Shown here piece by piece: positions 22,648 through 64,000 of a DNA stretch of 64,000 nucleotides. The notes below the pieces were generated by a model that worked only from the letters and a program-made list of their open reading frames with translations, had not been told where the DNA came from and searched no databases. Origin of the DNA: Chloroflexota bacterium (lineage in GTDB: Bacteria; Chloroflexota; Anaerolineae; Aggregatilineales; Phototrophicaceae); NCBI GenBank assembly GCA_026707745.1, contig JAPOWG010000104.1:1-64000 (forward strand), given 5' to 3'. How positions within the stretch are numbered: the stretch's first letter is position 1; each line of letters starts with the position of its first letter. The position numbers were made by a program, and so were the translations under genes.

Positions 22648-23397
22648 CTATTTTACAAATGTCGTTCCAACATCGCCTGCCCAGCCATCCAAATCCGTGA
22701 TTATGGCTTTAGGCACGCCAGATGATAGCACATCCAGCGCCGATTTGACTTTCGGAATCATGCCTCCGTATATCGTCCCGTTAGCTATCAATACTCGCGC
22801 TTCAACTTCGCTGAGTCTCTCAACCAGTTCGTTATCCATCAAAACGCCGGAGACATTGGAAATGAAAACGACGCTGTCGGCGCCTATCGCTGCAGCCAGC
22901 GCTCCAGCGACCGGGTCCGCATTCAGATTGAAGTTACTGTCAGTTCCGGCGCTGACTGGCGCAACTACAGGTGTCACACCGAGCTCCAGCAATTGAAACA
23001 GGACTTCGCCCCGCACCGACTTTACAGAGCCGGTAAACTGCATATCCACCGACTCGTGCCGCATTTGTCGGGCTCGTATAAGACCGCGATCGACGCCCGA
23101 CAGACCTTGCGCATCCACACCGGCGTTGAGCAAATGCCTGACCAGACGCTTGTTGACGCTCCCACAAAGCACCATTTCCACCAGCGAAAGGGATTGGGCG
23201 TCCGTGACCCGCAGTCCGTCAACGTACGTTGGCTCAATATTCAGGCGTTCCTGCAAGCGCGTGATCTCGATGCCACCGCCATGCACGATGACCAATTGCT
23301 CCTCTCGCCCTGCGACAGCCTCCGCAAATCGCCGTAGCAACGCATCGTCATCCAGATAATGCCCGGAGATCTTGATCAAGGAAATAAGGCTACCCAC
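22648..23397 (-). CDS. argB: Acetylglutamate kinase
   Basis: IKISGHYLDD; LVIVHGGGIEI; FNLNADPVAGALAAAIGADSVVFISNVSGVL; GGMIPKVKSALDVLSSGV. Confidence 0.92.
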   Translation of the reverse strand: MGSLISLIKISGHYLDDDALLRRFAEAVAGREEQLVIVHGGGIEITRLQERLNIEPTYVDGLRVTDAQSLSLVEMVLCGSVNKRLVRHLLNAGVDAQGLSGVDRGLIRARQMRHESVDMQFTGSVKSVRGEVLFQLLELGVTPVVAPVSAGTDSNFNLNADPVAGALAAAIGADSVVFISNVSGVLMDNELVERLSEVEARVLIANGTIYGGMIPKVKSALDVLSSGVPKAIITDLDGWAGDVGTTFVK

Positions 23398-35831: not shown

Positions 35832-35924
35832 AACCGCATCGCTCATGCGACGAGACGGCAACCTATTTTGTGTGAGCGCGGCTAGCCTATTCGCCGGTTA
35901 CGCGCCGGACGGCTCTTCTTGGGA
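35832..35924 (+). repeat. Dispersed ~87-bp repeat family R1, copy B
   Basis: AACCGCATCGCTCATGCGACGAGACGGCAACCTATTTTGTGTGAGCGCGGCTAGCCTATTCGCCGGTTACGCGCCGGACGGCT. Confidence 0.65.
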
Positions 35925-60041: not shown

Positions 60042-60896
60042 ATGAATCGACGCCAGCAATCCAGAATCGAAAGTATCGTCAAGCAGCGAATCGCGCGGGT
60101 CACCGCCTTGGCAGGCGGCATGATCAGTGAGGTGCTCAAAATTGAATTTCGTAATGATGACGCGCTCGTGGCCAAAATCGGCGACGGCGCCCACGATTTG
60201 CGCATTGAAGGGTACATGCTCCGGTATCTCCGGGAGAAAAGCAACCTGCCTGTACCGGAGGTGTACTATGAGAAAGCCGATCTCTTGCTCATGGAGTTTA
60301 TCGACGGTCTGACCGAGTGGGATTCGGCCAGCCTGGCTCAACTGGGACATCTGCTGGCAAACTGCCATCAGATCGGCGCGGGTTCTTATGGATTGGAGCG
60401 AGATACGCTAATCGGTCCTTTGCATCAGCCAAACGAGCAATCGGAATCCTGGATCGAGTTCTTTCGCGAGCATAGACTCCAATACATGATAGGCGTAGCG
60501 CGCGAATCAGGACATCTGCCGTCTCGGTTACACGGGCGACTCGCCGAATTCGCCGACAAAATCGAGCGATACTTGATCGAACCGCAGAATCCCGTCCTCA
60601 TTCACGGTGACATGTGGAGAACGAATGTCATCGTACGCGACGGCAGTATCGCCGGCATCATTGATCCGGCGCTCTATTACGCTCATAACGAAATGGAACT
60701 CGCCTACATGACGCTCTTCAATGGCGTCGGAAGGGAATTCTTTGCCGCGTATCGCGAGATACAGCCGATCGAGAATGCCTTCTTTGATACCCGCCGACAT
60801 GTGTATAATCTGTATCCACTGCTGGTTCATCTGACGATTTTCGGCGCTAAGTATCTGCAGCCCCTCGATGCCACACTAAGGCGGTTTTCAATATGA
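60042..60896 (+). CDS. Fructosamine/ketosamine-3-kinase family protein
   Basis: LLMEFIDGLTEWDSASLAQLGHLLANCHQIG; PVLIHGDMWRTNVIVRDGSIAGIIDPALYYAHNEMELAYMTLFNG. Confidence 0.88.
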   Translation: MNRRQQSRIESIVKQRIARVTALAGGMISEVLKIEFRNDDALVAKIGDGAHDLRIEGYMLRYLREKSNLPVPEVYYEKADLLLMEFIDGLTEWDSASLAQLGHLLANCHQIGAGSYGLERDTLIGPLHQPNEQSESWIEFFREHRLQYMIGVARESGHLPSRLHGRLAEFADKIERYLIEPQNPVLIHGDMWRTNVIVRDGSIAGIIDPALYYAHNEMELAYMTLFNGVGREFFAAYREIQPIENAFFDTRRHVYNLYPLLVHLTIFGAKYLQPLDATLRRFSI

Positions 60897-61013
60897 CTTG
60901 TCCTGGGTATTATGCATAGGGAAATTCGTACATACTGCATATAGAGTGTCCCGCTCTTAGCCGCTAAAGTTCAGGGGCTGCACGAGTCTTTGAAGCGATG
61001 GAACGGTCTCAAG

Positions 61014-61073
61014 ATGATTCGAATCAGTGCTGCACGCACAAGCAAGAAGGCCAAGAAGAACCCTACCCACTAG
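61014..61073 (+). CDS. Candidate Lys leader peptide: MIRISAARTSKKAKKNPTH
   Basis: 19-codon ORF with AAG AAG GCC AAG AAG, ending 37 nt before an intrinsic terminator upstream of lysW. Confidence 0.55.
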   Translation: MIRISAARTSKKAKKNPTH

Positions 61074-61110
61074 CTTGGGCTTGTTTGTGTTGATCGAAAT
61101 TTGAACGCAT

Positions 61111-61134
61111 ACCCGCCCAGATGGCGGGTTTTTT
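61111..61134 (+). terminator. Intrinsic terminator (candidate attenuator) before lysW
   Basis: ACCCGCC-cagat-GGCGGGT-TTTTT. Confidence 0.85.
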
Positions 61135-61191
61135 AATTCGAGCAGCCTTACTATAGTTAGCCGCTGGCAACAGTTGCAGGAGATACTCAAA

Positions 61192-61368
61192 ATGACGAAT
61201 GAAGCGCCCCTCTGTCCAGAATGTGATGCCGAAGTTGATATTCCCGGCGATGCCATGGAAAACGAATTGTTGTCTTGCCTGGAATGTGGTATCGAGCTGG
61301 AAATCATGAGCCTTGATCCCATTGAACTGGAACTCGCGCCGGAGGTTGAGGAAGACTGGGGAGAATAG
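61192..61368 (+). CDS. lysW: Alpha-aminoadipate carrier protein LysW
   Basis: CPECDAEVDIP zinc-ribbon, CLECGIELE, C-terminal EEDWGE motif. Confidence 0.94.
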   Translation: MTNEAPLCPECDAEVDIPGDAMENELLSCLECGIELEIMSLDPIELELAPEVEEDWGE

Positions 61369-61373
61369 CAATC

Positions 61374-62252
61374 ATGCGTGTTGCCCTGCTTGTCACCCAT
61401 ATACGCGCCGAGGAGAAACTGATACTCGCGGCATTCAACAATCGCGCTATCAGCCCGGATATCATTCTCGACCGCGAACTCAACTTCAACATTTCGGAAG
61501 GACCGCAGCAATTGGCGCCAAGCGGAATCGCCTGGCGCGAATACGACATGGTATTCGAACGCTGCGTCAGCACGTCGCGCGGGATGTATGCCCTGGCGAT
61601 ACTCAATAGTTGGGGCCTGCGCACGTTCAATACTTACGAGACCGCCGCCATATGCGGGGACAAGCTACGGACCAGTATTGCGCTCACTCTGCACGGTGTG
61701 CCTCAGCCGCATACGCGCGTCGCATTCACGCCGGAAAGCGCGATGCAAGCCATAGAGATCGTTGAGTACCCGGCAGTATTGAAGCCGGTAACCGGTTCCT
61801 GGGGCCGTCTGTTGGCGCGCGTACACAACAGAGATAGCGCCGAGGCCATCCTGGAACATCGACAGACTTTGGGCGACTACAACCACCACATCTATTACGT
61901 GCAGGAATACGTCGACAAACCGGGTCGCGATATACGCGCTTTTGTGGTGGGCAATCGCACCATCGCCGCCATCTACCGCGCGTCCAACCATTGGATCACC
62001 AATACCGCCCGCGGCGGCCTGGCGAGCAATTGCCCGGTGACCGAGAGCTTAAACGAGATCTGCGTTCGCGCGGCGGAGGCGGTCGGGGGCGGCATCCTGG
62101 CTATTGACTTGCTGGAAGACGCGGGGGGCAAATTCATCGTCAACGAAATCAACCATACGATGGAATTCCGCAATAGCAGCAAACCGACAGGTGTGGACAT
62201 CGCCCAGGAAGTCATCGACTTTGTTATCGGGGAAGTAGGAGTGGTCGCGTGA
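61374..62252 (+). CDS. lysX: LysW--alpha-aminoadipate ligase LysX (ATP-grasp)
   Basis: EYPAVLKPVTGSWGRLLARV; FIVNEINHTMEFRNSSKPTGVDIAQEVIDF; directly after lysW. Confidence 0.93.
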   Translation: MRVALLVTHIRAEEKLILAAFNNRAISPDIILDRELNFNISEGPQQLAPSGIAWREYDMVFERCVSTSRGMYALAILNSWGLRTFNTYETAAICGDKLRTSIALTLHGVPQPHTRVAFTPESAMQAIEIVEYPAVLKPVTGSWGRLLARVHNRDSAEAILEHRQTLGDYNHHIYYVQEYVDKPGRDIRAFVVGNRTIAAIYRASNHWITNTARGGLASNCPVTESLNEICVRAAEAVGGGILAIDLLEDAGGKFIVNEINHTMEFRNSSKPTGVDIAQEVIDFVIGEVGVVA

Positions 62253-63274
62253 TTCAAGCGGGGATCGTGGGCGGCAGCGGCTATACAGGCGGGGAGTTGC
62301 TGCGTCTGTTGCATTTTCATCCCGAAGTCGAGGTGCGGCAGATTACCAGTCGTGAGCACACCGGCCGCTACATTCACAGCGTGCATCCCAATCTTCGTGA
62401 TGTATCCAGGTTGAAGTTTAGCCATCCCGACAGTCTGGAAGCTTGCGATATGCTTTTTTTGGCGATGCCGCACGGTACTGCCGCGCGTCAAATCGATCAT
62501 TTCGCCGCGCTAGCGCCAAAGCTCATTGATCTTTCGGCGGATTTCCGCCTAGACTGTTTGGCCAGTTATCAGCGTTGGTATGGCGAAGATCATCCCGCGC
62601 CACGCTGGCTGGATCGATTCGTTTACGGATTGCCGGAGGTTTATCGTGAAAGCTTGACCGGCGCGAATTTCGTCAGCGGCGTGGGCTGCAACGCGACCGT
62701 CATTAACCTGGCTCTCTTGCCGCTTGTCCATGCCGGCTTGCTGGAACGCGCGGTGGCCGAGATCAAAGTGGGATCATCCGAAGGCGGAAACAAAGCCAAC
62801 GCCGGGTCCCATCATCCGATCCGAAGCGGCGCCGTGCGTACTTATAAAGCTACAGGTCATCGACACAAGGGCGAAGTTGAACTGGTACTGGGGGCGGAGC
62901 TCCCAATTGACTTCGCCGTTACCGCCATCGAGATGGTTCGCGGCGTTCACCTTCTGGCGCACTGTTACCTGAACGAGCCGCAGGTCGAGCGCGACATATG
63001 GAAGCTGTATCGCGCTCACTATCGCGACGAGCCTTTCCTGCGATTGGTCAGCGGCAAAACCGGATTACATCGCTTGCCGGAACCGCGCGTGGTTGCCGGC
63101 AGCAATTTCTGCGATATTGGCTTTGAGTTGGACGCGGACGGCAGGCACCTGGTGGTGGTCGCGGCCTTGGACAATTTGGGCAAGGGCGCCGCGGGCACAG
63201 CCGTCCAGTGCCTGAATCTTATGTTCGAACTCGACGAGACTGCGGGACTGGCCTTCCCGGGGCTCTATCCCTAG
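62249..63274 (+). CDS. lysY: LysW-aminoadipate-6-phosphate reductase LysY (ArgC paralogue)
   Basis: GIVGGSGYTGGELLRLLHFHPEVE; GVGCNATVINLALLPL; KVGSSEGGNKANAGSHHPIRSGAVRTYKATGHRH. Confidence 0.93.
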   Translation: MIQAGIVGGSGYTGGELLRLLHFHPEVEVRQITSREHTGRYIHSVHPNLRDVSRLKFSHPDSLEACDMLFLAMPHGTAARQIDHFAALAPKLIDLSADFRLDCLASYQRWYGEDHPAPRWLDRFVYGLPEVYRESLTGANFVSGVGCNATVINLALLPLVHAGLLERAVAEIKVGSSEGGNKANAGSHHPIRSGAVRTYKATGHRHKGEVELVLGAELPIDFAVTAIEMVRGVHLLAHCYLNEPQVERDIWKLYRAHYRDEPFLRLVSGKTGLHRLPEPRVVAGSNFCDIGFELDADGRHLVVVAALDNLGKGAAGTAVQCLNLMFELDETAGLAFPGLYP

Positions 63275-63288
63275 AGATGGGCGCGAAG

Positions 63289-64000
63289 ATGACTCGTGAC
63301 AGATTGCTGGTAGTTAAAATCGGCGGCGGCGCGGGCTTGGACCTGCCCGCGACTTCCGACGATTTGGCCTTGATTGCCGGGCAGCGCGCCCTGGTTGTGG
63401 TCCATGGCGTTAGCGCGATCATGGATCAACTGTGCCGGGACCTGGGTATCGAAGTTCAATCGCTGACATCGCCGTCCGGTCATAGTTCTCGCTACACGCC
63501 GCCCGCCGTGCGCGACATCTATGTACGCGCTTCAGAATCGGCGAATCAACGCGTGGTATCCGCCCTGCGGCAACGAGGCGTCAATGCGCTGGGCATGTCG
63601 GGAAACGAAGTTGTGATCAGCGCCAGACGAAAAAAAGCGATCCGCGCTGTCATTAATGGGCGCGTTCGTATCGTGCGCGATGATTGCAGCGGCTCGATAC
63701 AATCCGTGCATACCGACGTCCTTCAATCCGCGCTTGATAAGGGACAATTGCCCGTCTTGCCGCCAATGGCAAGCAGCGATGATGGTCTGCTCAATGTCGA
63801 CGGCGACCGCGCCGGCGCAGCCGCCGCGGCGGCGCTGGCTGCCGATACGCTGGTTATTCTCAGCAATGTCAAAGGTTTGTATCGCGAGTTTCCAGACGAA
63901 TCATCGTTCGTCTCGGAAGTGGCGCGTTCGCAGATTGACAGCGCGGAATCATGGGCACAGGGACGCATGAAACGCAAAATAATAGCGGCTCGCGAGGCGC
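63289..64000 (+). CDS. lysZ: LysW-aminoadipate kinase LysZ (ArgB paralogue), 3' end outside window
   Basis: Open frame to the window end, absent from the ORF track because it has no stop: RLLVVKIGGGAGLD; LVVVHGVSAIMDQLCRDLGI; LNVDGDRAGAAAAAALAADTLVILSNVKGLYREFPD. Confidence 0.92.
   Translation, partial: MTRDRLLVVKIGGGAGLDLPATSDDLALIAGQRALVVVHGVSAIMDQLCRDLGIEVQSLTSPSGHSSRYTPPAVRDIYVRASESANQRVVSALRQRGVNALGMSGNEVVISARRKKAIRAVINGRVRIVRDDCSGSIQSVHTDVLQSALDKGQLPVLPPMASSDDGLLNVDGDRAGAAAAAALAADTLVILSNVKGLYREFPDESSFVSEVARSQIDSAESWAQGRMKRKIIAAREA

Follow-up and report, generated by a model that had tools for sequence, protein, structure and literature searches.

A probable lysine-specific leader-peptide attenuator upstream of the lysW operon in a Chloroflexota lineage, with tandem leaders in its relatives

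The window analyzed here is a stretch of 64,000 nt that forms part of a Chloroflexota (Anaerolineae) MAG, from a lineage known here from MAGs. Toward its end, the plus strand carries lysW (61192-61368), which encodes the amino-group carrier protein and is the first gene of the controlled operon. The lysW product scores above the cut-off of Pfam Zn_ribbon_LysW (59.8 bits) and just under the cut-off of the NCBIfam LysW models. An SD-like CAGGAG of lysW is located at 61178-61183. On the same strand follow lysX for LysX ligase (61374-62252; TIGR02144), lysY for an ArgC/LysY-type reductase (62249-63274; TIGR01850), and lysZ for [LysW]-aminoadipate kinase (63289-64000, continuing beyond the window end; NF010659), each above the cut-off of its family model. 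Past lysZ, the contig contains lysJ, lysK, and the homocitrate synthase gene, and then hacA and hacB for the large and small subunits of homoaconitase. A separate argB, over its family cut-off, lies on the minus strand (22699-23379). The DAP decarboxylase gene lysA is also above its family cut-off (G000:C37:192236-193441, locus L137) despite the missing dapB, which was not found in the genome search, and no Lys leader was seen ahead of lysA. Since lysA is present but dapB is absent, the aminoadipate route looks like the genome's sole complete lysine pathway. The absence of dapB, the lack of any match to the lysine riboswitch RF00168 in the whole genome, and the possession of its own argB together make the operon look dedicated to lysine.

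A short ORF 5' of lysW, the first structural gene, contains a cluster of codons for the end product of the pathway. This leader ORF of 19 codons (61014-61073, plus strand) encodes MIRISAARTSKKAKKNPTH and ends in the stop TAG (61071-61073). Its cluster reads AAG AAG GCC AAG AAG, with the Lys codons at 61044-61049 and 61053-61058. The earlier note had taken this leader for a candidate lysine attenuator whose codon identity matches the pathway. Its coordinates were all correct on recheck, and the match holds, with LysW-X-Y-Z-J-K and homocitrate synthase in the operon and the homoaconitase genes nearby. An intrinsic terminator (61111-61134, plus strand) is located between the leader ORF and lysW. 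It consists of ACCCGCC-CAGAT-GGCGGGT-TTTTTT, with 7-bp arms at 61111-61117 and 61123-61129 and a run of six T at 61129-61134. Upstream of the leader ATG, the region 60925-60970 (plus strand) contains the candidate promoter motifs TTCGTACAt (60925-60933), TATAG (60940-60944), and TAAAGT (60965-60970). These are conserved, and a MAFFT alignment of 33 congeners yields the promoter-like consensus ttTTCgtACaa..taTaG..TA.AGT. With such motifs 5' of the leader ATG, there is no indication of a TSS beyond 61073. A match of a generic promoter scan at 60885-60913 was at chance level and was not used.

The leader and terminator are present upstream of lysW in 34/34 genomes of the genus. Among them, G033 (locus L019) carries two leaders and the other 33 genomes one each. 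The leader consensus of these 33 single-leader genomes is SKK[AV]KK(T/N/P)xT[HR]-stop, and the length and N-terminal half of the leader vary within the genus. The cluster codons encode Lys in 131 of 132 cases with AAG and AAA interchanged, and the third base of the Ala/Val codon between the Lys pairs is unconstrained. The position of the stop is invariant, although the stop codon itself is TAA in 12, TGA in 14, and TAG in 7 of these genomes. As judged from the alignment, such a pattern is characteristic of a translated frame, beyond a mere RNA motif, and this coding selection indirectly supports translation of the leader ORF. The window genome has no strong Shine-Dalgarno ahead of the leader ATG; one is seen in relatives, L066 among them. 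With a covariance model of the leader, exactly one match per genome was obtained in the 28 genus genomes searched, always before lysW, and no match was obtained in other genera. The model is blind beyond the genus because the helices diverge, and a scan for Lys-cluster ORFs was used there in its place. The scan recovered a Lys-cluster short ORF in 53 of 55 distinct lysW upstream regions (LysX at least 64% identical), compared with 0.3 predicted from dinucleotide shuffles and a single one on the reverse strand. In more distant lysW loci, it was recovered in 16/60 against 1.05 expected.

Within the terminator, GGCGGGTTTTTT is invariant in the 33 congeners. The 5' side of the terminator contains segment 3 (GCCCAG, 61115-61120) and its 3' arm is segment 4 (GGCGGGT, 61123-61129), both on the plus strand. 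In the window, TTGGGC (61075-61080) pairs with segment 3 to form the 2:3 core, which in many congeners is GUAUGGGC:GCCCAUAC and in the clade of the window has just 6 bp with one G-U. The earlier note had this core right but incomplete, because the same strand also pairs with the terminator 3' arm. Segment 2, the antiterminator 5' strand ACCCACTAGCTTGGGC (61065-61080, plus strand), holds the leader stop codon, and ACCC..CUA (61065-61072) within it pairs against that arm. The longer duplex joins ACCC[AG]CU(stop).GUAUGGGC with GCCCAUAC.GGCGGGU, that is, segment 3 plus the terminator 3' arm. The strand ACCCACUAGCUUGGGC, with the leader stop codon inside it, can pair in this way with both terminator arms over about 13 bp. 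The computed energy of the duplex between 61065-61080 and 61115-61129 is -19.2 kcal/mol, compared with -12.5 kcal/mol for the terminator hairpin, and the two structures are mutually exclusive. This extended pairing explains the conservation of the last leader codons, ACC CAC/CGC stop. Segment 2 starts 6 nt past the last Lys codon in the window, with the core at +15/16, and in most units, distant ones included, the core starts about 15 nt past the last Lys codon.

Covariation of the 2:3 pairing across genera is clear at the sequence level. Among 47 distinct sequences, the first position past GGG:CCC forms a pair in 46/46 (UA, CG, UG, or GU), and the second alternates among AU, CG, GC, UA, and UG. 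When terminators were permuted among the 58 distinct leader units, the score for pairing each leader with its own terminator was reached in 0/5000 permutations. This result likewise holds within the first-of-tandem and the last-of-tandem sets. The earlier note had held that missing conservation of the Lys codons or of segments 1-3 in related lysW leaders would refute the attenuator. That comparison was run, and the Lys codons, the stop position, segments 2 and 3, and the terminator proved conserved and covarying.

In the window, segment 1 (GCACAAGCAAG, 61036-61046, plus strand), which lies under a ribosome at the Lys codons, forms a 1:2 helix of 10-11 bp in the MFE fold with segment 2' (CTTGTTTGTGT, 61080-61090, plus strand). 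The 1:2 helix proposed earlier, AAGGCCAAG:CTTGGGCTT, is just a fragment that extends this helix imperfectly on its inner side. The 1:2 and 2:3 helices share position 61080 alone. With almost no bases in common, 1:2 would exclude 2:3 only by topology. Congeners contain 1:2-like helices in more than one register, and just 26/90 units reach p <= 0.05, a level of support below that of 2:3. On these folding results, the 1:2 helix is treated as auxiliary and as the weakest element of the proposed switch.

The effect of the ribosome position on folding was computed by removing the RNA hidden by the ribosome and folding the remainder, with RNA free from the A-site codon +13, a footprint that corresponds to the E. 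coli value. In silico, the structure switches between the regulatory codons and the stop codon. With Lys codons 1-4 of the window leader in the A site, P(terminator) is 0.00, 0.00, 0.01, and 0.30, and it reaches 0.97 once the A site holds the stop codon. When the leader tail and spacer were shuffled, the mean P(terminator) at Lys codons 1-3 was 0.91, and only 1 of 300 shuffles reproduced the switch between Lys stall and stop codon. In the 33 single-leader congeners, P(terminator) averages 0.11 at the first Lys codon versus 0.97 at the stop. In several relatives, the terminator persists at equilibrium folding even with the ribosome stalled, and antitermination there would need kinetic trapping. 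Folding of truncated transcripts supports such trapping. In transcripts that end before the terminator 3' arm, predicted antiterminator pairing is stronger under a stalled ribosome than under a stop-codon ribosome in 33/33 congeners, and under the stalled ribosome it exceeds that of shuffles. The fold of the 201-nt leader on its own is unremarkable (z = -1.09), and single-sequence MFE was dropped as evidence since this value is uninformative.

We consider it very likely that the lysWXYZJK-hcs operon is under the control of a ribosome-mediated, lysine-specific transcription attenuator. The predicted direction of the response and the predicted termination in vivo are as follows. RNA polymerase would copy the leader, and a ribosome would trail it along the 19-codon ORF. 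In a shortage of Lys-tRNA(Lys), this ribosome would stall at AAG AAG GCC AAG AAG. Segment 2 would then be left free to pair with segment 3 before the terminator 3' arm is made, and next with the 3' arm (GGCGGGT), so that transcription would proceed into lysW. When lysine is ample, the ribosome would advance to the stop codon within segment 2 and mask this segment, allowing the terminator to form. After ribosome release, the 1:2 hairpin (61036-61046 with 61080-61090) may hold segment 2 closed.

A different weighting of the same elements would have the classic 1:2 hairpin chiefly govern termination, leaving the stop-codon ribosome without a role. The helix does exist in the window, and the window leader lacking any ribosome still has a P(terminator) of 0.95. 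However, without a ribosome the values are scattered over the 33 single-leader congeners (mean 0.61) and fall near 0 in several of them, unlike those with a stop-codon ribosome. The inconsistency of 1:2 across congeners and its scant overlap with 2:3 also argue against this weighting, which we regard as unlikely. The reading in the earlier note is supported with an amendment: termination is best explained by a stop-codon ribosome over the antiterminator strand, with 1:2 secondary.

It is much less probable that the attenuator senses arginine, or translation speed in general, instead of lysine. LysW pathways serve arginine in some organisms, and the leader tail T[HR]-stop has Arg or His codons. 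However, the genus alignment reveals that the Arg codons are not conserved, unlike the Lys codons, and the tail codons are accounted for by segment 2 pairing. The genome also has the separate argB, and LysZ is called [LysW]-aminoadipate kinase.

Bacterial lysine genes are generally described as being under the control of lysine riboswitches or T-boxes. Control by such an RNA, or by another trans-acting RNA or protein, with an incidental Lys-rich ORF, is scarcely credible here, since the leader ORF is under codon-level selection. The lysine riboswitch and T-box readings are contradicted, as Rfam models gave no gathering-level match to either near lysW in the window and 20 related loci. The least probable reading, that the terminator belongs constitutively to the upstream kinase gene and lies beside a chance Lys-rich ORF, would suit the unremarkable single-sequence fold and the number of terminator-like sites in this stretch (one, near the chance expectation of 0.6), but can be dismissed given the occurrence of leader and terminator throughout the genus, the covariation of the antiterminators across genera, and the excess of Lys-cluster ORFs over expectation.

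The element in the window is a new case of classical leader-peptide attenuation, of which a lysine version is already said to exist in Thermus thermophilus. Tsubouchi et al. 2005 (J Biol Chem) reportedly described a leader-peptide attenuator of the T. thermophilus lysine cluster, which is said to lie before homocitrate synthase and not directly before lysW. It reportedly likewise combines a Lys-codon leader, transcription attenuation, and alpha-aminoadipate/LysW genes, and it belongs to a different phylum. Given this case, the earlier note was probably mistaken in its view that LysW operons have no known leader-peptide attenuator. We found no earlier report of a lysine leader attenuator for the LysW pathway in Chloroflexota in the literature searched. 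With the trp, his, phe, thr, and ilv attenuators of Proteobacteria and Actinobacteria, the window leader shares the codon cluster, the exclusive antiterminator and terminator, and ribosome position as the signal. It differs from them in its Lys codons, its weak 1:2 helix, and the stop codon within a long antiterminator strand, which pairs into the two arms of the terminator. The Trp_leader model RF00513 scores 24.2 bits over 61070-61137 against a gathering score of 41; the hairpin layout resembles that of the window leader, but this is a resemblance only, as the leader has no Trp codons and is not a member. For lysine, the element listed in a survey of RNA-based regulation of amino-acid genes is the L-box (PMC1262725). 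In PMC5584792, the name lysW refers to a transporter and not to the carrier protein.

Strong comparative evidence points to a lysine leader-peptide attenuator as the control that has been conserved for the LysW (alpha-aminoadipate) pathway of this Chloroflexota lineage, and the leader motifs could help to annotate lysine regulons in MAGs. Four order-level relatives (L040, L041, L042, and L044) have no convincing Lys-cluster leader before lysW; L040 has a poor candidate only, and L042 has little upstream sequence. Without a genuine leader, control may differ there.

Tandem Lys-rich leaders, with a terminator after each, are found in 22/115 distinct lysW loci (L019, L033, L039, L043, L045, L046, L047, L049, L063, L066, L067, L069, L070, L073-L075, L077-L079, L081, L086, and L094). 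The upstream leader is of the window type, KKAKK..TH-stop, with a stop codon that either borders the antiterminator strand or falls within it. The downstream leader often ends in KKPDPRSG-stop, and its last codons, CGGTCTGGA-like, themselves encode the antiterminator strand, which pairs with TCCAGACC of the terminator. A sample of 60 loci from across the class shows tandem leaders in 5/8 loci of other genera in the family. Lys-rich leaders, alone or in pairs, turn up again in families f21, f22, f36, f37, f38, and f40, and most remaining families in this sample have none. Because G033 retains both leaders and the other 33 genomes have the first only, the single-leader state in the genus is probably derived, as far as distribution indicates. 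The attenuator in the window is likely the survivor of an ancestral pair, with two different serial lysine attenuators across much of the family and in scattered other Anaerolineae. If this is true, having two terminators that respond to one amino acid would multiply the repression and make the response steeper.

Two serial leader ORFs before one operon are also seen in Salmonella mgtCBR, a singular case of tandem attenuators with different signals, in which the mgtM and mgtP leaders sense ATP and proline, respectively (PMC3641672). This was the only tandem leader-peptide attenuator in the literature searched. In contrast to mgtCBR, both leaders in the relatives are Lys-rich and precede a lysine operon, and the window genome has one. 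The predicted mechanism in the window itself is classical, and the novel part is the tandem arrangement predicted to sense one and the same amino acid. Tandem attenuators with the same signal would offer a naturally occurring test of the way in which terminators in series influence an expression response.

Two further features were observed upstream of lysW. A second family of leader-like ORFs, approximately KKPSLACRDGxxCLG-stop, is located about 270-330 nt upstream of lysW in L106, L200, and L201; it is conserved and is found in family f36 and L106. In one congener, L007 (G020), a dispersed repeat that is about 95 nt long, GGCGCGTAACCGGCG...GAGCGACGCGGTTTA, is inserted between the attenuator and lysW, and similar sequence occurs at about 1120-1220 of L137 and on the minus strand of the window near 35892.
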